Positions 1 to 58,205 of a DNA stretch of 64,000 nucleotides are shown here, piece by piece. Below the pieces are notes generated by a model. The model made no database searches and had not been told where the DNA came from. It saw only the letters and a list, made by a program, of their open reading frames with translations. Source of the stretch: Flavobacteria bacterium MS024-2A (GTDB lineage: Bacteria; Bacteroidota; Bacteroidia; Flavobacteriales; Flavobacteriaceae); assembly GCA_905182305.1 (NCBI GenBank), contig CAJJBB010000006.1, forward strand, positions 1 to 64,000, read 5' to 3'. A program made the position numbers and the translations under genes. How positions within the stretch are numbered: the first letter of the stretch is position 1; every line of letters starts with the position of its first letter.

Positions 1-94
1 TGTAATATAGTTGCATTACCGTGTATAGGGTGGTCAAGAATATGAGTTAACAGCTTCTGGAGAAGCAGGGCCTTATGGCAGAGTTAATATCACA

Positions 95-334
95 ATGCAC
101 TTTACTAATAAGTTAAATAACACAAATGGAATAGGAGAGTTTACAGGATTCGCTTGGTCTCAAACACCAGAAGGAATAACAGAAGCAACTCTTCAAGGTG
201 TAACACGTCCTGAAGGGGATAAATTCATTGGATATAGTTATGATGCATTAACAAATGGAAAAATAATGCAATGGAGAGGTGAGTTTGATTTCATTGCCAA
301 TAAAATTAAACTTGAAGTAAAAGAAGTTCTTTAG
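95..334 (+). CDS. C-terminal part of an unrecognised small protein, 5' end uncertain
   Basis: Not recognised as a named family. The frame is open from position 29, directly after a TAG at 26-28, and the residues before the first ATG (95) look as protein-like as those after it (tyrosine- and glycine-rich, for example EYELTASG). The real gene therefore probably began further upstream and has lost its 5' end or carries a frameshift; the first ATG may not be the true start. The visible 79 residues alternate polar and hydrophobic positions with many glycines and look like a beta-rich soluble domain. A hairpin terminator follows at 359-390. It could be a pseudogene fragment, which would suit the decayed neighbourhood. 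Confidence 0.4.
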   Translation: MHFTNKLNNTNGIGEFTGFAWSQTPEGITEATLQGVTRPEGDKFIGYSYDALTNGKIMQWRGEFDFIANKIKLEVKEVL

Positions 335-358
335 CTTTAATCAACGACTTAATAATTT

Positions 359-390
359 GCGTCATTAATTAAATTTAGTGACGCTTTTTT
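359..390 (+). terminator. Rho-independent terminator after the first gene
   Basis: GCGTCA and TGACGC form a 6-bp stem around an AT-rich loop, followed by six T residues (385-390). It lies 25 bp after the stop codon at 334. Confidence 0.65.
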
Positions 391-495
391 ATATTATCTG
401 CATCCCCCTTCATTAAGTTCCTGAAGAAAAATAAGGAGTAGAGATATTTTAGATTTTTTTTATATTAGTAGCTTATTAATCATAAATCAATAAAA

Positions 496-1005
496 ATGAA
501 AAAACTAATTCTATTAACAATTACAATATTAATGTTTGTCGGTTGTAATCAAGCCGCAAGTGAAAAGTGCGAGTCTTTAGAGATAGCTAACGCACAAATT
601 GAGAAAGATATTAATACTTACAAGACAGCTTGGGACATGTTTTTTGAGACCAGAGATAGTGGAGCCATAAATACTGACAGTTTTGATGAGCAAGTAACAG
701 TAGTTACTGCATCTGGAAATATAACAGGTATTGATGCATTTAGAGATTATTATAATAATTATTTGACTGGATTTTCTGATGCTGAATTTACTTTTGTCGA
801 TATTTTTGGACAAGGAGATAAAATAGTTAAACATTGGAATTTTAAGGGAACACACGATGGTGAAATGTTTGGAATTCCAGCGACTAATAATACAGTAGAT
901 ATAAACGGAACTACATTAGTTTTAATGAAAGATGGAAAAGTATTACAAGAGCAAGATTTTTTTGACAATCATTCATTCTTAATGCAACTGGGATTACTGG
1001 AATAA
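496..1005 (+). CDS. Lipoprotein with an NTF2/SnoaL-like domain
   Basis: The 169-aa product starts with a lipoprotein signal: a Lys-rich start, a hydrophobic core and a lipobox ending FVGC, with Cys17 as the lipidated residue. The rest (about residues 35-165) has the pattern of a SnoaL/NTF2-like cone fold: an N-terminal helix with an AWDMFF segment, then strands containing FTFVDIF, KHWNFKGTHDGEMFGIPAT and a Val/Leu-rich strand before the final helix. Such domains bind small ligands or act as cyclases or isomerases; nothing here shows the substrate. It stands alone and is followed by a strong terminator at 1148-1176. Probably anchored in the inner or outer membrane facing the periplasm. Confidence 0.8.
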   Translation: MKKLILLTITILMFVGCNQAASEKCESLEIANAQIEKDINTYKTAWDMFFETRDSGAINTDSFDEQVTVVTASGNITGIDAFRDYYNNYLTGFSDAEFTFVDIFGQGDKIVKHWNFKGTHDGEMFGIPATNNTVDINGTTLVLMKDGKVLQEQDFFDNHSFLMQLGLLE

Positions 1006-1147
1006 AACTCTAGTCTACGTAATTTAAATCACAAATAGATTTAGTTTGGTTGCATAATTAAAGTACAGTTGGATTTGATATTTAATCTTATTGTAATAAA
1101 TTTTTATTCTTCTGATTTACTAAAAAAATTAAATCAAAACTTAATAT

Positions 1148-1176
1148 AACCCCTGTCAACCGAGGGGTTTTTTTTA
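1148..1176 (+). terminator. Strong rho-independent terminator after the SnoaL-like lipoprotein
   Basis: AACCCCT and AGGGGTT form a 7-bp stem with an 8-nt loop followed by eight T residues. Its T-tract runs into the left arm of the 36-bp inverted repeat, so on the minus strand the hairpin directly follows the short frame ending TEDDMPVV-stop. Confidence 0.8.
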
Positions 1177-1210
1177 AACCACAGGCATATCATCTTCAGT
1201 AAGTTCTGGG
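1175..1210 (-). repeat. Left arm of 36-bp inverted repeat
   Basis: The 36 bases 1175-1210 match the reverse complement of 1881-1916 with one mismatch. On the minus strand the arm reads as the end of a coding frame, ELTEDDMPVV-stop. A diverged third copy is at 36315-36342. The two arms point inward around the membrane-protein gene at 1381-1791. Confidence 0.8.
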
Positions 1211-1289
1211 ATTACAATACACTTTACCAAGATTACAAGCTATGTTAATTAAGGATGAGGTTAAGGATATGCCATTGTTCATTGAATAA
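1206..1289 (+). pseudogene. C-terminal remnant of a DUF5681-like phage-type protein
   Basis: Translating from 1206 gives 27 residues then TAA: LGLQYTLPRLQAML, then a charged stretch, then MPLFIE. This closely resembles the end of another remnant on the minus strand at 2612-2750 (LQYTIPRMKQV ... LHLFIE) and the corresponding part of the frameshifted gene at 4899-5187 (FMKFVIPTQKAIEL). Only the last part of the gene is present and it starts inside the inverted-repeat arm, so it is a leftover, not a working gene. The family name is inferred from the pattern, not from a search. Confidence 0.55.
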
Positions 1290-1380
1290 GTTCTTGATGT
1301 TACTCCTTATATCCCATAATTAATTTTAAGATTTTTTATATTTGCTTTAAATAAAATGGGTTTTTTAAAAAATATGTTTT

Positions 1381-1791
1381 ATGAAAATCAGTAAAGAAGT
1401 AATTGCAAAAGGATTTGTTCTTTCTGGAATAATGAATATTGGAGGGACTTTGATTTTTTCAAGGTTTTTTACAAACGACTCTATTCCTGCTGCTGACCCA
1501 GTTGTAATGTCTAATTTCGGTTTGCTAATGATTGTTTTGTGGGGCTTAGTTTTTTTATCCATCTCTCAAAAATATGAGCAATTAAATTGGCTTATTGGAG
1601 TGTTTGCAATTGAAAAATTTATTTATGGATTAAATTGGATCAATTGGATTTCGAATAATGATCTTTCTGCAGTATTTAATAAAGACCAAATGGCAGGAAT
1701 TTTCTATGCTGTATATGGTATAAATGATTGGCTCTTCTTTCTGTTTTTCTTGTTTGTATTTATTAAGTTATTTAAATTCAAGAGTGCTTAA
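1381..1791 (+). CDS. Small four-helix membrane protein of unknown function
   Basis: The 136-aa product is mostly hydrophobic with four likely membrane segments, roughly residues 10-30, 44-62, 68-86 and 108-132, and ends with a short basic tail. No known motif is visible. The gene stands alone between remnants and lies inside a 36-bp inverted repeat (1175-1210 and 1881-1916), so it may be cargo brought in with the repeat. The 375 bases before it hold the terminator, the left repeat arm and a phage-type gene remnant. Confidence 0.65.
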   Translation: MKISKEVIAKGFVLSGIMNIGGTLIFSRFFTNDSIPAADPVVMSNFGLLMIVLWGLVFLSISQKYEQLNWLIGVFAIEKFIYGLNWINWISNNDLSAVFNKDQMAGIFYAVYGINDWLFFLFFLFVFIKLFKFKSA

Positions 1792-1880
1792 TGAGTGCAT
1801 CACTATTTTTTTCTAAATAACATTCCGCAGATCTGGGCTACAATCCCACCTTTAAGGGATATTTAAAATATAAAAGAAAT

Positions 1881-1916
1881 CCTAGAACTTACTGAAGATG
1901 ATATGCCTGTGGTTTA
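1881..1916 (+). repeat. Right arm of 36-bp inverted repeat
   Basis: Reverse complement of 1175-1210 with one mismatch. It reads on the plus strand as EILELTEDDMPVV then a stop, so the repeat may be the 3' end of a once-coding gene copied in both orientations. The rest of 1792-2012 shows no gene. Confidence 0.8.
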
Positions 1917-2012
1917 GGTTATACATCATTATACGAGCTCTAGTCTCAAAAGAAAAGTGGATTTAATTTTAGGGATTGTTATTTGTTTTTGAGAAAAATA
2001 TTTATTCATAAA

Positions 2013-2570
2013 CTATGATTTATTTTTATCTGTAAAATTGATATAAAACCCAATTGTTAGGAGTATATAACCTAAAACATTAATCCATCCTCCACCAATA
2101 TAAATTGCTAATGTACCTATCAAAACTAATAAAGTTCCAGTTTTTGAATTTTGGTAATAACTAAAACTTGAAGTAAGCAATCCAAGATTAAATAACAATC
2201 CATTAAATTTCATAAAAGGTTTCCATATTTCTGGAGTATTGATTAAATGTTCAGACACTTGTCTTTTAAGTTCAGGTTCTTTTAAACTCCAAAAAACAAA
2301 ATCAAGGACACACATCCCAATTATTAAACCTATTCCAAGTATTAATGTTGGAGAACTTATATAATTCCATTTACTTTTTGGAAAATTTCCAATTTGAGGA
2401 ATGAGTAATAAAACACCAATCAACATAAACCAATGAGCAAAATCAATTGGTTCTTGAGAATGAAGTGCTTCTATGTCATTATAAAAAATAAAAATCAAGA
2501 ACTGACCAACTGTATAAAGAACTAAGCCAAGAAGAAAATAAAATTCATTTAGTTTTAAATACATTTTCAT
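2013..2570 (-). CDS. Multi-pass membrane protein of unknown function
   Basis: The 185-aa product has about six predicted membrane segments (approximately residues 8-30, 44-60, 72-95, 120-138, 143-158 and 160-177) and short hydrophilic loops. One loop contains an LKEPELKRQ segment. No family motif is recognised. It is a single gene transcribed leftwards, with decayed gene fragments immediately upstream (2612-2838), consistent with an accessory gene. The start ATG at 2570 is followed two codons later by a second ATG, so the exact start is uncertain by two residues. Confidence 0.7.
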   Translation of the reverse strand: MKMYLKLNEFYFLLGLVLYTVGQFLIFIFYNDIEALHSQEPIDFAHWFMLIGVLLLIPQIGNFPKSKWNYISSPTLILGIGLIIGMCVLDFVFWSLKEPELKRQVSEHLINTPEIWKPFMKFNGLLFNLGLLTSSFSYYQNSKTGTLLVLIGTLAIYIGGGWINVLGYILLTIGFYINFTDKNKS

Positions 2571-2611
2571 AAACTAAATATAATGTTTTTAAAAACACAC
2601 AATCCAAGAAC

Positions 2612-2838
2612 TTACTCAATAAACAAATGCAAGTCCACACTTACTTCATTAGTAACTTGTTTCATTCTTGGTATAGTGTATTGTAGGGCTATTTGAAGCA
2701 TCTTAATGCGCTGGCTAGCGTCTAACTCATTAAATATTGCTTGCACACGAAAACCCAGTCAGCCCCCTTCTTTGTGTATTACTCGATACATTGTTCTCCA
2801 GTCTTTACTGCAAACATCACAAAGTTTCTGTCTTGGGC
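2612..2838 (-). pseudogene. Mosaic remnant: zinc-ribbon 5' part joined to a DUF5681-like 3' part
   Basis: Reading leftwards from about 2838, the frame encodes CDVCSKDWRTMYRVIHKEG, nearly the same as the intact gene at 4076-4237. It then hits a TGA because five C residues replace four (2763-2767, plus strand). Past the frameshift ADWVFVCKQ continues, then homology stops near 2736. From there a different frame encodes LDASQRIKMLQIALQYTIPR and ends HLFIE-stop at 2612, resembling the remnant at 1206-1289. No start codon is left. This looks like two small genes fused by a deletion. The stretch 2839-3006 shows nothing recognisable. Confidence 0.65.
2736..2820. repeat. 85-bp direct repeat, copy 1
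   Basis: Matches 4138-4221 with two substitutions and one extra C. It corresponds to the middle of the 53-aa zinc-ribbon gene; this copy is frameshifted. The two copies flank the ChbG/YdjC deacetylase gene. Confidence 0.85.
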
Positions 2839-3006
2839 CTGTAAATTAATTAGTTATAAAATAAATTATAGCATACTCATATATTAACAACTTTACTTTT
2901 TTTCTTACCGGAGTCTTTGTATATCTTTATTTCATAAAATAGCTAAGAGGAATGTTTAGAAAAGTTTTTTTGTCAACTCATACTGTTTTTTATCCTTCTA
3001 AACACA

Positions 3007-3969
3007 TTGATCTTTTGTGGAATAAGATTTTTTTTGAATTTAAATGATATTCCAATTTATGACAATAGATTAATTTATGATTTTATATTTAGCAATAATG
3101 ATGTAAATCAGTTTAATAATTTATCTGAATTACTAGGGTACAAGAAAAACGATAAGCTTTTGATAATTCATGCAGATGATTTGGGCTTATCTAATTCTGT
3201 CAATCAGGCTTCTTTCGAGGCGCTAAATAAAAACTATATAAACTCAGCAAGTGTCATGATTCCTGCACCCAATACAAACGAGGTGGCTGACTATTTTAAA
3301 GAAAACCCCGATACAGATTTAGGGCTTCACCTGACTTTTACATCTGAATGGAAAAATTATAAATGGCATGGTATTAGTCAAAATGATTCTATTTCATCTT
3401 TGATAAATGGCAAGGGTAATTTTTATGAAAAGAAAAAAGAAGTTATCAAAAATTCTAATCCACAGGACATAAGAAAAGAATTACAAGCACAAATAGATTA
3501 TGCAATATCTATTGGAATAAAACCAACACATCTAGACAGTCATGAGGGAGTGTTATTTTTTTCACCAGAATTTTTCAAAATTTATCTTGATATTTCAAAA
3601 AAAAATAGACTTCCTGTTTTTGTTCCAAAACTTTTAGCACCACATTTTAATAATGATTTTCCACAACCTAAAAATTTAGTTGTTGTAAAAATGTATATGG
3701 CTGATAAAAATATATCTTTTGATAATTGGCCTGAATATTATGAATCATTAATCAATAATTTAGAACCTGGATTAAATGAAATGATTTTTCACCTTGGCTT
3801 AGATAATAATGAAATGAAAAAAATCACCTCGAATAGAGTTGCTTTTGGTTCTAAGTGGAGAAATTTAGATTATAATGTAGTATCTAGCCCTGAATTTAAG
3901 GCATCACTGATTAAAAACGATATTAAATTAGTAACATGGCGAGAAATTAAAGAAATATTATATCCTTAA
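3007..3969 (+). CDS. ChbG/HpnK (YdjC) family carbohydrate deacetylase
   Basis: Members of this family remove acetyl groups from sugars such as chito-oligosaccharides with a divalent metal. The core starts near residue 52 with IIHADDLGLS, which supplies the catalytic Asp; GLHLTFTSEW (about 105-114) and THLDSHEG (about 177-184) supply the metal-binding His residues. The downstream part and length fit the family. The start is unclear: the frame opens with TTG at 3007, no ATG precedes the core, and about 45 residues before the domain resemble nothing familiar, so the original 5' end may be lost. It sits between the two 85-bp repeats and is followed by a terminator-like hairpin at 4092-4128. Confidence 0.75.
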   Translation: MIFCGIRFFLNLNDIPIYDNRLIYDFIFSNNDVNQFNNLSELLGYKKNDKLLIIHADDLGLSNSVNQASFEALNKNYINSASVMIPAPNTNEVADYFKENPDTDLGLHLTFTSEWKNYKWHGISQNDSISSLINGKGNFYEKKKEVIKNSNPQDIRKELQAQIDYAISIGIKPTHLDSHEGVLFFSPEFFKIYLDISKKNRLPVFVPKLLAPHFNNDFPQPKNLVVVKMYMADKNISFDNWPEYYESLINNLEPGLNEMIFHLGLDNNEMKKITSNRVAFGSKWRNLDYNVVSSPEFKASLIKNDIKLVTWREIKEILYP

Positions 3970-4075
3970 ATAATTTAATAATTCATAATTCAAAACCATA
4001 TAATTATAAAACTATAAAGAACGATAAGTAGCTTTCCAATTCAGAATATTAAGATTAATCGTAATTAACTAAAAA

Positions 4076-4237
4076 TTAACGATTCCAAGTGCCCCCAAAT
4101 TTATAATGGGGGTTCTTTTTTTTGACTGATAGCAAACATTGCTTGCACATGAAAACCCAGTCAGCCCCTTCTTTGTGTATTACTCGATACATTGTTCGCC
4201 AGTCTTTACTGCAAACATCACAGGGTTTTTTTCTCAT
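4076..4237 (-). CDS. Small zinc-ribbon-like protein (53 aa)
   Basis: ATG at 4237 opens a 53-codon frame ending TAA at 4076. The product has two Cys pairs, CDVC (residues 6-9) and CKQC (31-34), spaced like a small zinc ribbon, and ends HYKFGGTWNR; I associate a C-terminal YxxGGTW motif with small conserved proteins, but could not search. Coding use is supported by the damaged copy at 2736-2838, which differs mainly by a frameshift. The last third overlaps the hairpin that can terminate the convergent ChbG transcript. Function unknown; nucleic-acid binding would be a guess. Confidence 0.65.
   Translation of the reverse strand: MRKKPCDVCSKDWRTMYRVIHKEGADWVFMCKQCLLSVKKKNPHYKFGGTWNR
4092..4128 (+). 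terminator. Terminator-like hairpin after the deacetylase gene
   Basis: CCCCCA and TGGGGG form a 6-bp GC-rich stem around a 9-nt AT-only loop, followed by TTC and eight T residues. It lies 120 bp after the deacetylase stop and inside the 3' end of the convergent zinc-ribbon gene, so the sequence serves both purposes or the resemblance is accidental. Confidence 0.5.
4138..4221. repeat. 85-bp direct repeat, copy 2
   Basis: 84-bp partner of 2736-2820; this copy retains the open reading frame of the zinc-ribbon gene. Confidence 0.85.
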
Positions 4238-54659: not shown

Positions 54660-55511
54660 TTATTCAAATGATTTTAATTTAAAATGGAGCACATTTCTTG
54701 TTGATTTTTGAGCTAATATATTCAGCGCATGGTTGCTTAATTGAAGTATTCTTGGGTATCCACCGGTTACTTGCGCATCTCGCATGAGCACTATTAGAGT
54801 TCCGCTTGGCGTAAGTTGAACCGTACCTGGTAAAACGGCCGTAGTCCACATCTCTGGTAGTTTGTGTATTATTTTTTCTTCTAACTGATAGGCCATACGA
54901 TTGTTTAGATGACTAATTGTGAAAGTCTGTGTAACTATTTTCAATTGAGTTACTGATTCTAATAAATCAAATTCTGGCCCTTTGAATACCTCAATTTCTT
55001 TTGTGATATATGAGGGTAGAGGACTTTTTAGCGTGACCCCTTTGTTTAATTCAAATGACTTTTTTTTAATTTGTAATATTGTATTTTTATTGATGTGTCC
55101 TGATTTTGTAATATGATCACACTGACTCCTACTACTTAGTATTCTTTCGGTTTGGAGTCCCCCCAAAACAGACATGTAAGTTCTACAACCTTCTTTGCAA
55201 GCTCCGCATTCAAGCACGTCATTTTTTTTAATCAAAATGGGGCTATACAAGGAAGCTTTATTACCATTATGCTTAATGTCCATTTGGGCTCCTGTAAATA
55301 CGATAATCGTTTCAATATGAAACTTTAGTTTTGGACCCTTAATTGTCATTTCTAATAAAGCAGCATTCAAGGGATTATTTAAAAGCTTGTTAGCCCAATT
55401 AAAGGAGTTCATGTCCATAGCACCAGAATAAGGAATTCCATATTCTTGCATCCCCATTCTCCCTTGATCTTGAATAGAAGTATACCAACCTGAATTAAGG
55501 ATTTCAATCAT
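54660..55511 (-). CDS. pxpC: 5-oxoprolinase subunit C (PxpC), biotin-dependent carboxyltransferase-like
   Basis: A 283-aa member of the KipA/PxpC family. The N-terminal GWYTSIQDQGRMGMQEYGIP signature (about 8-27) and ESVTQLKIVTQTF region fit. PxpC with PxpA and PxpB opens 5-oxoproline to glutamate using ATP. It overlaps pxpB by 4 bp (ATGA-type), so the subunits are co-translated. Last gene of the pxp operon. Confidence 0.9.
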   Translation of the reverse strand: MIEILNSGWYTSIQDQGRMGMQEYGIPYSGAMDMNSFNWANKLLNNPLNAALLEMTIKGPKLKFHIETIIVFTGAQMDIKHNGNKASLYSPILIKKNDVLECGACKEGCRTYMSVLGGLQTERILSSRSQCDHITKSGHINKNTILQIKKKSFELNKGVTLKSPLPSYITKEIEVFKGPEFDLLESVTQLKIVTQTFTISHLNNRMAYQLEEKIIHKLPEMWTTAVLPGTVQLTPSGTLIVLMRDAQVTGGYPRILQLSNHALNILAQKSTRNVLHFKLKSFE

Positions 55512-56236
55512 AGTATTATTTCTCTAAAATTCGGAGGAATTCTATTTTTCCTAATTTTTTTGAATGTAGTCTCTGAAATTGAATAAAAAGAAAGAGTATC
55601 TCCTGATTTAGCAAAGCAAGGCTGTTTAAGATTCGGGTCAAACATCGAAGTAGGTGAAGTACCAATTATATTCCATCCCCCCGGGCTCTGGTTTGGATAT
55701 ATGCCACTTTGTCTCCCTCCAATTCCTACAGCACCCTTAGAAACTTTTAATTTAGGTGATTTTTTACGAGGATAGTATAATTTAGCATCTAATCCCTCTA
55801 AGTAAAGAAAGCCAGGTAAAAAGCCAATAAAATATATTTGATAAATCGGTTTTGTATGTAATTTAATTAATTGGTGATGCGATAATTTCAAATGTTCTGA
55901 AAGAATGCTTAAGTCTGGGGCATATTTGGATTCATAACAAACCGGAATATTCCAATGTTTAGATTTAATTGTTGATTTCGAAGAGTCAAAACTTGAATAT
56001 AGTTTTAAAATTTCTTCTTTTAGATTCTTGTATTTTTTTAATGGATTACTGAATTGAAGTAGCAAAGACTTATAACTTAAAGTGATTTGTTTTATGCCAC
56101 TTAAGTTACTGTATAACAAATTTTTAAATACCACTAATTCATTTAACAAATCAAGTTTAGGTTCTGCTTTCAATTCAAGTAAAATAGAGGTTTCGCTATA
56201 TTGAAATATTCTAAGAAAAGATTTTCCCTGAGACAT
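55508..56236 (-). CDS. pxpB: 5-oxoprolinase subunit B (PxpB)
   Basis: A 242-aa KipI/PxpB-type protein. The IPVCYESKYAPDLSILSEHL segment (about 96-115), the GFLPGFLYLEGL motif (about 136-147) and the SPGGWNIIGTSPTSMFDP segment are family hallmarks. Works with PxpC as the ATP-dependent 5-oxoprolinase. Overlaps pxpC by 4 bp and lies 10 bp after pxpA. Confidence 0.92.
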   Translation of the reverse strand: MSQGKSFLRIFQYSETSILLELKAEPKLDLLNELVVFKNLLYSNLSGIKQITLSYKSLLLQFSNPLKKYKNLKEEILKLYSSFDSSKSTIKSKHWNIPVCYESKYAPDLSILSEHLKLSHHQLIKLHTKPIYQIYFIGFLPGFLYLEGLDAKLYYPRKKSPKLKVSKGAVGIGGRQSGIYPNQSPGGWNIIGTSPTSMFDPNLKQPCFAKSGDTLSFYSISETTFKKIRKNRIPPNFREIIL

Positions 56237-56246
56237 TAGATGATTT

Positions 56247-56957
56247 TTATTGTTTAAAACTTATCATTAGACTTTTAAGGTTTCTAACTGAATTAGGATG
56301 ATCTCCATGAATACACAAAGTGTCTACTTTTAATGAAAGAGTATTTCCTTCTAATGTTTTTACATATTGATGGTTTATTAAAGTGTAAAATTGTTGGTTT
56401 AAGTCTTCAAGCGTTGAGAGTGTAGCGCTAGGGTTTGCACGTGAAACCAACTGTCCATTATCATGATACCGACGATCTATAAACCCTTCACGCCATATGG
56501 TTAAGTTATTTTCTTTCCCTAATTTTTCTAAAATACTGTTAGGAAGTGTCACGATTATTGCATGAGGACATAATTCAAGAACTACCTTAATTAATATGGA
56601 TGCAATTTTTGGTTTATTTGCTGAATCGTGATATAGGGCACCATGAGCCTTAACGTGATTTAAAGTATAAGAACTCTCATTTAAAAATAAAATCATTTGT
56701 TGCTTTATGCTTTTATAAAGTTCATCAAGATTAATTTCCATTGAAATTCTCCCAAAATTTTTAAGATCAGGATAAGAAGGGTGTGCCCCAATTTTCACAT
56801 CATTTTTTTCAGCTAGTGCAATTGCTTTAGAAATCTCCTCTTTACTCCCTGCGTGCCCTCCACATGCAATATTACAACTATCTATTAAGGGCATCATTTC
56901 AGCTTCAATTCCAAAACCTTCACCTATATCGGCATTGATATGAAAACTTTTATTCAT
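56247..56957 (-). CDS. pxpA: 5-oxoprolinase subunit A (PxpA, LamB/YcsF family)
   Basis: A 236-aa protein of the LamB/YcsF family. INADIGEGFG at the N-terminus with its metal-ligand Asp, CNIACGGHAGS (about 28-38) and HVKAHGALYHD (about 101-111) are clear. Catalyses the first step with PxpBC in removing 5-oxoproline, a damaged form of glutamine or glutamate. It is 3 bp after the Nramp-like transporter gene, which probably supplies the substrate. Confidence 0.95.
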   Translation of the reverse strand: MNKSFHINADIGEGFGIEAEMMPLIDSCNIACGGHAGSKEEISKAIALAEKNDVKIGAHPSYPDLKNFGRISMEINLDELYKSIKQQMILFLNESSYTLNHVKAHGALYHDSANKPKIASILIKVVLELCPHAIIVTLPNSILEKLGKENNLTIWREGFIDRRYHDNGQLVSRANPSATLSTLEDLNQQFYTLINHQYVKTLEGNTLSLKVDTLCIHGDHPNSVRNLKSLMISFKQ

Positions 56958-56960
56958 TCT

Positions 56961-58205
56961 TTATAACTTTAAATAAACAGACCATAAAGTACGTGCACTC
57001 AATAAAAATGCAATAATTACAATAATAAAACCTAAAATATTTTGAAAAATATTATTTTTATGAGAACCAAGAACGCTGGATTTGTTCATTATCCAAAGAA
57101 GTATTCCTGCTATTAGTGGTAGTAATAGTCCATTTGTAATTTGAGCAAACTGAATAATTGCTATCAATTTTAAACCTGTGGCTGAAAATAATACTCCTAT
57201 AAGTAAAACAATCCCCCATACTATTTTAAAACGAGTAGACTGTAGGTTGGTATCCCAGCTAAAACAACCGCAAACCACATATGCTGCAGCAAGAGGAGCA
57301 GTAATTGTACTTGTTATGCCAGCTGCAAATAAACCAAATGAGAGGAAGTATTTTGAAAACGAACCGAAAATAGGCTCAAGTCCTTTTGCTAAATCGACTG
57401 CATTTTCAATTTGGATTAATGAGGTTGCTGAAGCACTAATAATAACGCTCAGAGAAATAATACCACCTAATACTAGAGCAATAACCATGTCATTCATAGC
57501 AAGTGGTAACTGCGCAACATGGGTCCACTTTTTCCTTACCAATTCAGTGTGAAGAAATAAATTATAAGGAACAATAGTAGTTCCTACTAATCCTATAATA
57601 CTCAGCAAACTACCCTTTGGGATTGATAAGTTAAAAAGACCTCTTAGTACATGCAAAAGAGAAGGACCAGTGCTAATAGCGGTTAACAGGAATGAAATAC
57701 TCATTAAGACAACCATAATAATTAAACTACGTTCAATTAGTTTATACTTTCCTATCCATAATAATCCTCCTGCCAAGAAGCCTATTAATAATGAAAATAA
57801 ATTAATTGATAACGTATTAAAGCGAAGAAGTTGTTTTCCGAAAATAGTTTCTAATCCAAGGACAGCTCCACTTATATTTCCTGCTTCATAGGCAGTATTT
57901 CCGATCATAATAGTTATAAAAACAAGTAGCAATACTCCAAACCTAAGCCATGGTGCTTTTATTTCATCTTTAAGTATCTGAGTAATACTTTTTTTACCAA
58001 TGACACCTAGCTTTACCGCCATACCCTGAAGGATAATTGCTGCAATAATAGATACTAGTATAGTCCAAAGTAGATTTAGCCCATACTTAGCACCAACTAT
58101 AGTGCAAAGTGTAATGGTGCCAGGACCTATAAATGCCGCAGCAATTAGAGGACCAGGCCCTATTTTTTCTAAAAATTTATTAACCATTTTTAAAGAATAA
58201 TTCAA
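56961..58205 (-). CDS. Nramp-family transporter lacking canonical metal residues
   Basis: A 414-aa LeuT-fold membrane protein with about 11 helices, Nramp type. In metal-transporting Nramps TM1 carries DPGN and TM6 MPH; here TM1 has GPGT (residues 27-30, in IAAAFIGPGTIT) and TM6 has VPYN (212-215), so the metal-binding Asp, Asn, Met and His are all replaced. The gene is the first of the nramp-pxpA-pxpB-pxpC unit (3-, 10- and -4-bp gaps). A role in importing 5-oxoproline or a related amino acid instead of metal ions is inferred from these two facts. Confidence 0.85.
   Translation of the reverse strand: MNYSLKMVNKFLEKIGPGPLIAAAFIGPGTITLCTIVGAKYGLNLLWTILVSIIAAIILQGMAVKLGVIGKKSITQILKDEIKAPWLRFGVLLLVFITIMIGNTAYEAGNISGAVLGLETIFGKQLLRFNTLSINLFSLLIGFLAGGLLWIGKYKLIERSLIIMVVLMSISFLLTAISTGPSLLHVLRGLFNLSIPKGSLLSIIGLVGTTIVPYNLFLHTELVRKKWTHVAQLPLAMNDMVIALVLGGIISLSVIISASATSLIQIENAVDLAKGLEPIFGSFSKYFLSFGLFAAGITSTITAPLAAAYVVCGCFSWDTNLQSTRFKIVWGIVLLIGVLFSATGLKLIAIIQFAQITNGLLLPLIAGILLWIMNKSSVLGSHKNNIFQNILGFIIVIIAFLLSARTLWSVYLKL

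Follow-up and report, generated by a model that had tools for sequence, protein, structure and literature searches.

An Nramp-family gene beside 5-oxoprolinase genes in a flavobacterium, a probable importer of 5-oxoproline

Introduction

The closest described systems are Nramp-family proteins encoded in pxp operons, for which the published accounts conflict over whether Mn2+ or 5-oxoproline is carried. In C. glutamicum, deletion of pxpT abolishes growth on 5-oxoproline and complementation restores it, and its authors do not rule out metal transport by PxpT (PMC13274462, 2026). B. subtilis YcsG had earlier been implicated in 5-oxoproline use. It has also been called a Mn importer and renamed MntG in a study in which overexpression raised cell Mn, MntR bound the ycsG operon (pxpA promoter), and a mntH mntA ycsG triple mutant was obtainable only with an additional copy of ycsG (PMC10448178). 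The same study describes an unstable phenotype for a ycsG disruptant in the reporter strain, and overproduction was used. In A. baumannii, cells with a mumT deletion accumulated less Mn, as measured by ICP-MS, and MumT is reported as a Mn importer (PMC5050338).

Beyond these proteins, Nramp-related groups are described as paraphyletic and, except for NRMT and the MntG group, as "entirely uncharacterized" (PMC12873925, the BfraNramp preprint). In PMC9606685 the outgroup consists of the nearest relatives of Slc11. The literature searched, as far as its text was accessible, gives the Slc11 orphan outgroup no substrate, and in that search, which had most subscription journals outside it, the only ties between an Nramp relative and 5-oxoproline were PMC13274462 and PMC10448178.

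Here I describe an Nramp-family gene directly before pxpABC in a stretch of 64,000 nucleotides from Flavobacteria bacterium MS024-2A (contig CAJJBB010000006.1; the window). I propose, with a probability of roughly 75%, that its product is a secondary importer with the LeuT fold that takes up 5-oxoproline (pyroglutamate) and not metal. The idea is not wholly new, PxpT and YcsG being already Nramp-family proteins linked to 5-oxoproline use; the new part is to propose a substrate for the Slc11 orphan outgroup, whose motifs are matched by the clade of the window protein, called clade W below.

Results

The gene and its neighbours

The Nramp-family gene lies on the minus strand at 56961..58205 and was delimited and classified from PF01566, the start of its relatives, an AlphaFold model and Foldseek. 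Its open reading frame as called opens with TTG at 58205 and has 414 codons, but the likelier start is an ATG at 58187 (residue 7), with which several relatives start in line, and the protein is thus probably 408 aa long; residue numbers here count from the TTG. The protein matches PF01566 (Nramp) with 247.6 bits (E 2.5e-73), past the gathering cut-off of 29.8. Its AlphaFold model, built with 56 sequences, has a mean pLDDT of 88.9 and a pTM of 0.87. The best Foldseek match is EleNRMT (7qia, TM 0.84), and amino-acid carriers, ApcT among them, come further down with lower scores.

Between its stop codon and the ATG of pxpA there are 3 bp, and it is co-directional with pxpABC. The gene for 5-oxoprolinase subunit A, pxpA (LamB/YcsF; 56247..56957, minus strand), was recognised by PF03746 (E 1.2e-70) and by NF003816 above its cut-off, the PxpA model scoring 219 bits against a cut-off of 213. 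For subunit B, pxpB (55508..56236, minus strand), PF02682 matches and TIGR00370 is above its cut-off, with 154.7 bits against 145.55 for the PxpB model. Subunit C, pxpC (54660..55511, minus strand), rests on PF02626 (E 8.8e-66), with TIGR00724 (188.6 bits) and PxpC_5OPro (158 bits, equivalog cut-off 500) both below their cut-offs. On the same strand, a lolD-like gene (59695-59024) lies upstream of a DUF2400 gene (59027-58260) that comes directly before the Nramp gene, and pxpC is followed by a dihydroorotase-like and then an esterase-like gene. The Nramp and pxpABC genes have the same base composition as the window (33% and 32% GC).

In the genome of the window, which is 86.5% complete, two ZIP-family open reading frames and FeoB are present, and a search of it for a canonical MntH or a ZnuA-type match found none. 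The genome also holds a second PF01566 gene (L073, G000:C10:18000-22500; Nramp match at G000:C10:19602-20612), a further Nramp-related type on a very long branch with GVSH and APL at the two motifs.

Placement among Nramp relatives

The relatives were sorted by profile A1, which includes one member each from two genomes (G179, G108) of the group called W2, defined as the rows or genomes at 238-454 bits. In a careful tree of 63 rows under a mixture model, W, W2 and the archaeal rows form one clade with support of 98/95. This tree dropped 17 of the 80 rows of an earlier one, namely 13 near-duplicates and 4 rows on long branches, with L207 of W2 as one of the 4. In the 80-row tree W was supported at 99 (SH-aLRT), and in a quick tree at 94, unstarred. 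The window protein falls outside the MntH clade (100/100), and its nearest row is L110, from a Flavobacteriaceae MAG, at 63% identity. Apart from W stand the NRMT-like rows, only two in number, which join the DDPSG types (100/99), and a long-branched clade Y (100/100). Y is separate in the best tree, but a tree with W and Y on one joint side was not rejected, with a p-AU of 0.397 against the free careful tree, and 0.74 in the quick tree, where the joint arrangement scored higher.

The window protein falls short of the NCBIfam MntH cut-offs (NF001923, 120.5 against 430 bits; TIGR01197, 75.8 against 272.5 bits), and the only NCBIfam Nramp model that it passes is the broad Nramp_1 (61 against 50 bits). 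A canonical Slc11/MntH metal transporter is ruled out by the motifs (GPGT and VPY), by these scores and by the tree; an NRMT magnesium transporter is likewise rejected, the window protein lying in a separate supported clade, as judged against two NRMT-like rows only.

Two other relatives, L075 and L095 (the latter on a Neorhizobium plasmid), are of an Nramp-related type with a TM1 GPG (GPGN or GPGS) outside both W and Y. The L095 gene comes after a gene of the dihydrodipicolinate-synthase family, which is why further organic substrates may exist within the Nramp-related family, beyond W and Y.

A replaced metal site

DraNramp binds Mn2+ through D56, N59, M230 and backbone carbonyls, and through Q378 by way of water (PMC10185341). 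Throughout clade W the positions of D56, N59, M230 and H232 are G, T, V and Y, and the equivalent of Q378 is kept in the window protein as Q355 in TM10. In TM1 the unwound motif is GPGT (residues 27-30; 58116..58127, minus strand) in place of DPGN, and in TM6 it is VPY (residues 212-214; 57564..57572, minus strand) in place of MPH, with N215 next; the AlphaFold model breaks its helices between residues 25-28 and 210-213, at these two motifs. Alignment further marks the TM3 motif Y106-E107-A-G109-N110 (57876..57890, minus strand) and, in TM10, Q355 to N358 (57132..57143, minus strand), where Q355 is the retained canonical site residue. The TM3 alignment is ambiguous by one turn, either N110 or E107 lying opposite the canonical Glu.

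An earlier, sequence-only reading of the window had placed the gene before pxpABC with 3-bp spacing, which is so (on the minus strand), and had given GPGT and VPY the same residue numbers, correct when counted from the TTG. Its statement that all metal ligands are gone stands for the side chains at D56, N59 and M230 and for H232, which lies beside the site, and fails for Q378.

The conservation alignment has 127 rows: 105 from W, 18 from W2 and 4 from haloarchaea. V212, Y214, N215, T209, T210, N110, G109, G113, Q355 and N358 are invariant in all 127; G27, P28 and G29 are present in all 125 rows that are ungapped there, and T30 in 124 of the 125. Some variation is found at Y106, which is F in 12 of the 18 W2 rows, at E107, which is Q in 3/105 W and 4/18 W2 rows, and at P213, which is G in the 4 archaeal rows, T in 4/18 W2 rows and L in 1/105 W rows. 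Ten MntH rows have D, N, M, H and E at columns 27, 30, 212, 214 and 110, each in 10/10. Because the replacement residues are invariant across the rows, the metal site is, on this alignment, one that was swapped as a set and maintained, not one that decayed.

Clade Y and its loci

All 11 clade Y rows carry GPGF and GGY, and they share with W the G that stands in place of the metal Asp, N110 and Y214. Three that were tested score 71-92 bits with PF01566, and the members read have about 18-22% identity to the window protein. A clade Y gene adjoins pxpA in L065-L070, L099 and L108 (some Bacteroidota, several plasmids); at L106 it is near pxpA with two transposase genes between, and at L109 no pxp gene is annotated. 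A putative hydro-lyase resembling YcsI is also encoded at L099 and L108, with a divergent GntR gene in addition at L108, and these layouts fit those described for B. subtilis and C. glutamicum (PMC10448178, PMC13274462). In A. baumannii (L220) the clade Y gene, again with GPGF and GGY, is followed by PxpA, YcsI-like and PxpB-PxpC-like frames, the gene order of the described mumTLUHC (PMC5050338). YcsG and PxpT thus probably belong to clade Y, an assignment made from gene order and the identity to 9a52 and not from direct alignment, and MumT probably belongs there as well, not in W. An exact-match search of genome_contigs with a segment of a published C. glutamicum pxpT primer gave 0 hits, and a clade Y protein had no match in the PDB sequence file. 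GPGF and GGY at the mum-like locus of A. baumannii mean that loss of DPGN and MPH does not by itself exclude a Mn phenotype.

Co-occurrence with oxoprolinase-type enzymes

Two samples were used, the first of 198 Bacteroidota genomes and the second of 146 genomes from the class of G003, also Bacteroidota. With profile A1, 30 genomes of the first sample score at least 563 bits (W), 18 score 238-454 (W2), and the next scores 203; the cut for W and W2, at least 238 bits, was chosen after this gap had been seen. The same cut was applied to the second sample, in which the counted members score from 332 upwards and the next match scores 183. A PF03746 match below cut-off in G106 was left out, and G128 was scored as lacking W despite a W-like fragment at one contig end; members counted in the second sample include G253 and G292, whose matches are partial, and G276, which has an internal stop.

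PF03746 (PxpA) is above cut-off in 47 of the 198 genomes and PF02538 (Hydantoinase_B) in 29. One or the other is present in every W or W2 genome (48/48; PxpA in 36, Hydantoinase_B in 12), against a base rate of 76/198 (Fisher p 1.8e-26). All 30 W genomes have PxpA, and the 18 W2 genomes divide into 6 with PxpA and 12 with Hydantoinase_B. At genus level the count is 24/24 against a base of 44/103 (p 1e-11), and only this genus-level test takes shared ancestry into account, in part. As a control, the enzyme was present in 17 of 85 genomes with only other PF01566 genes and in 11 of 65 with no PF01566 gene (p 0.68). In the second sample all 66 member genomes have the enzyme, among them 34/34 that are new with respect to the first sample (27 Hydantoinase_B, 7 PxpA); there the control, 14/28 with only weaker A1 matches against 15/52 without a match, shows a trend in the same direction (p 0.088). 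Over both samples, 82 distinct genomes have a member and 82 have PxpA or Hydantoinase_B, and on these counts I reject a chance neighbourhood in both Bacteroidota samples.

The converse fails, since 28 of the 76 oxoprolinase genomes of the first sample have neither W nor W2. In six of these 28 (G033, G072, G125, G138, G146 and G150) a clade Y gene adjoins pxpA (the loci L065-L070 above). PxpA and Hydantoinase_B occur together in 0 genomes of the first sample (47 and 29 of 198; p 0.0003) and in 0 of the second (28 and 67 of 146).

Gene neighbourhoods and apparent enzyme exchange

The loci taken from genome_contigs are the best 80 of at least 596 relatives, and the set is therefore biased to flavobacteria. 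Within it pxpA lies downstream on the same strand in 77 of the 80, of which 75 are ordered Nramp-A-B-C, and the median distance from Nramp gene to pxpA is 27 bp between tblastn matches (range 3-4139). L136, L155 and L158 gave no pxp or oxoprolinase match in the stretch read. Of the 30 W genes of the first sample, 26 are within 1.3 kb of pxpA, and transporter and enzyme are apart in 14 of that sample's 48 member genomes (4 W, 10 W2); among the latter is G171 (W2), with Hydantoinase_B about 5 kb off. HyuA-HyuB lies within about 1.5 kb of the W2 gene in 8 of the 18 W2 loci read. At one locus of the second sample (L219, G240:C5:95000-106000) the pxpA match of G240 falls in two pieces within one open frame of 284 aa.

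On haloarchaeal plasmids the order is Nramp-HyuA-HyuB in all seven loci opened (L093, L094, L103, L104 and L210-L212), out of 22 records with at least 70% identity to L093. For Natrononativus (53% to L093) and Pseudoalteromonas (47%), no oxoprolinase was found in the stretch read. After HyuAB comes an Asp/Glu racemase-family gene in 3/7 haloarchaeal loci and a maleate isomerase-like gene in 1/7, and a CopG-type regulator is upstream of the transporter in 6/7.

HyuA and HyuB form one open reading frame of 1253-1341 aa in L191, L196, L213-L215, L217 and L218, a layout like that of eukaryotic 5-oxoprolinase. The L191 enzyme has as its best PDB sequence match the N-methylhydantoinase 7hk5 and as its second 6yra, labelled 5-oxoprolinase; the best NCBIfam matches of the HyuAB enzymes are caprolactamase subunits, far below cut-off. 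In G230 (L213, G230:C4:244000-258000) the W gene lies 0.6 kb tail-to-tail from a fused HyuA-HyuB frame, whereas pxpA is found in seven genomes that share its genus code (g61), so that the enzyme seems to have been exchanged within one genus code. I take all this to mean that the transporter keeps one role while its partner enzyme can be exchanged. That the transporter stays constant while its partner changes points to a shared substrate, and 5-oxoproline is presumably the one common to PxpABC and the OPLAH-like fused HyuAB, the HyuAB enzymes here being only putative oxoprolinases.

Discussion

Directly observed are the family to which the fold belongs, the order of the genes, the coordinated replacement of the metal site across the clade and the co-occurrence with either of two unrelated oxoprolinase-type enzymes. 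What the sequence-only reading had made of the locus, a 5-oxoproline importer in place of a Mn or Fe transporter, is also the reading best supported here, given oxoprolinase co-occurrence in 48/48 and then 34/34 new genomes. Of the tests it had named, co-occurrence with pxp genes across genomes gave PxpA or Hydantoinase_B in every one of those genomes, and the phylogeny with aligned TM1 and TM6 gave a separate clade W (98/95) with conserved GPGT and VPY positions. Its suggestion of a new role for this Nramp branch fits clade W but not the family at large, where PxpT is already needed for growth on 5-oxoproline. It had also held that a close homologue shown to transport Mn2+ would speak against it; YcsG and MumT, reported Mn importers, answer to this in part, as members of a distant group.

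The Nramp gene and pxpABC would form one operon, in which the window protein would bring in 5-oxoproline and PxpABC would open it to glutamate, a source of carbon and nitrogen for the cell. The substrate would sit between the broken helices TM1 (GPGT) and TM6 (VPYN), with N110 of TM3 and Q355 and N358 of TM10 near it. Amino-acid carriers with this fold bind the carboxylate at a glycine-rich break in TM1, and that of 5-oxoproline may be held in the same way here. Main-chain partners in the unwound TM1 and TM6 shape such pockets, according to a review (PMC5809530). Uptake is probably ion-coupled, perhaps to H+ via E107, the coupling ion being a guess.

The main doubt comes from the Mn evidence for Y-type relatives, the importer role of clade W being a prediction from sequence. 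On a rival reading, of the kind argued for YcsG (MntG) and MumT, the site of the window protein is remodelled but still passes Mn2+ or another divalent metal, and the gene adjoins pxpABC because nitrogen metabolism needs metal. The raised Mn upon ycsG overexpression, MntR at the pxpA promoter and the triple mutant (PMC10448178) all fit this, as do the lowered Mn of the mumT deletion by ICP-MS (PMC5050338) and the ability of EleNRMT, an Nramp without DPGN and MPH, to carry Mg2+ (PMC12873925); the window protein itself retains Q355, and its genome (86.5% complete) yielded neither a canonical MntH nor a ZnuA-type match, though it has FeoB and two ZIP-family frames. However, the clade of YcsG and MumT is, at least probably, Y and not W, and in the YcsG study the disruptant in the reporter strain had an unstable phenotype and overproduction was used (PMC10448178). 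In DraNramp the single change D56A leaves no metal transport (PMC10185341), and clade W has G, T, V and Y at D56, N59, M230 and H232 across its breadth. Co-occurrence with oxoprolinases, moreover, holds for clade W and is significant for no other Nramps. I therefore consider metal import here very unlikely.

There is a small chance that the protein serves the same enzymes with another organic substrate, such as a hydantoin or other cyclic amide, a pyroglutamyl peptide, or glutamate or glutamine moving in or out. Since several lactams and hydantoins are taken by HyuAB enzymes, the compound actually carried could be a different one; their relatives here include 7hk5 and 6yra, with caprolactamase subunits below cut-off, and an Asp/Glu racemase-family gene stands downstream in three of the seven haloarchaeal loci. 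Against this, 5-oxoproline is the substrate that PxpABC and OPLAH-like fused HyuAB share, the HyuAB enzymes here being putative oxoprolinases. The genetics of PxpT also favour it (PMC13274462). Hardly credible is a relic Nramp with a decayed metal site, transporting nothing or a neighbour by chance: it would account for the lost metal ligands and for the genomes where gene and enzyme are distant, but the replacement residues are invariant in 127/127 rows and 82/82 distinct member genomes have PxpA or Hydantoinase_B. Import of 5-oxoproline is thus the reading that I carry forward.

More tentatively, and at somewhat less than even odds, the orphan sister group as a whole may consist of importers of 5-oxoproline (small lactam acids) in bacteria and haloarchaea, the role having been kept through exchange of PxpABC and OPLAH/HyuAB. 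W and Y would then perhaps descend from one ancestral non-metal branch, and the metal site would have had its origin in, or alongside, a site for organic anions. If the orphan Slc11 relatives could be assigned a substrate, the Nramp family would gain a functional root, and ideas on how its metal site originated could be tested. Such a substrate would also go some way towards resolving the published conflict between Mn2+ and 5-oxoproline for Nramp relatives in pxp operons, and the present reading adds a likely route of 5-oxoproline uptake in marine flavobacteria and haloarchaea. In one listing of relatives all 24 records bear a divalent-metal-transporter name, and the window protein passes Nramp_1; for clade W the annotation as divalent metal transporter is probably wrong.

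Comparison with known systems

The window gene shares with PxpT, YcsG (MntG) and C. difficile PxpG its place as an Nramp-family member in a pxp operon, and the YcsG-FabL integrative model 9a52 superimposes on the window model with a TM of 0.80 at 21% identity. Clade Y members have the same kind of operon but differ in GPGF and GGY and in forming a separate supported clade. Canonical Nramp/MntH proteins (DraNramp, EcoDMT, DMT1) have the same fold (DraNramp 6d91, TM 0.84) and belong to the same Pfam family, yet carry DPGN, MPH and a TM3 glutamate where the window protein has GPGT, VPY and N110. The Mg2+ transporter EleNRMT is the best match by both Foldseek and PDB sequence, at 24% identity, whereas the two NRMT-like rows have DAGG and APW and lie in a different clade from W. 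There is also a likeness to the Slc11 orphan outgroup of Cellier, described by Y and N four apart with glycines (G-Y-G-N-G-G) in helix 3, V and Y in helix 6 and a helix 6 T (PMC10606218). Compared by motifs alone, and with the helix 3 Y replaced by F in 12/18 W2 rows, clade W matches these substitutions at G102, Y106, G109, N110, G113, G117, V212, Y214 and the TT pair.
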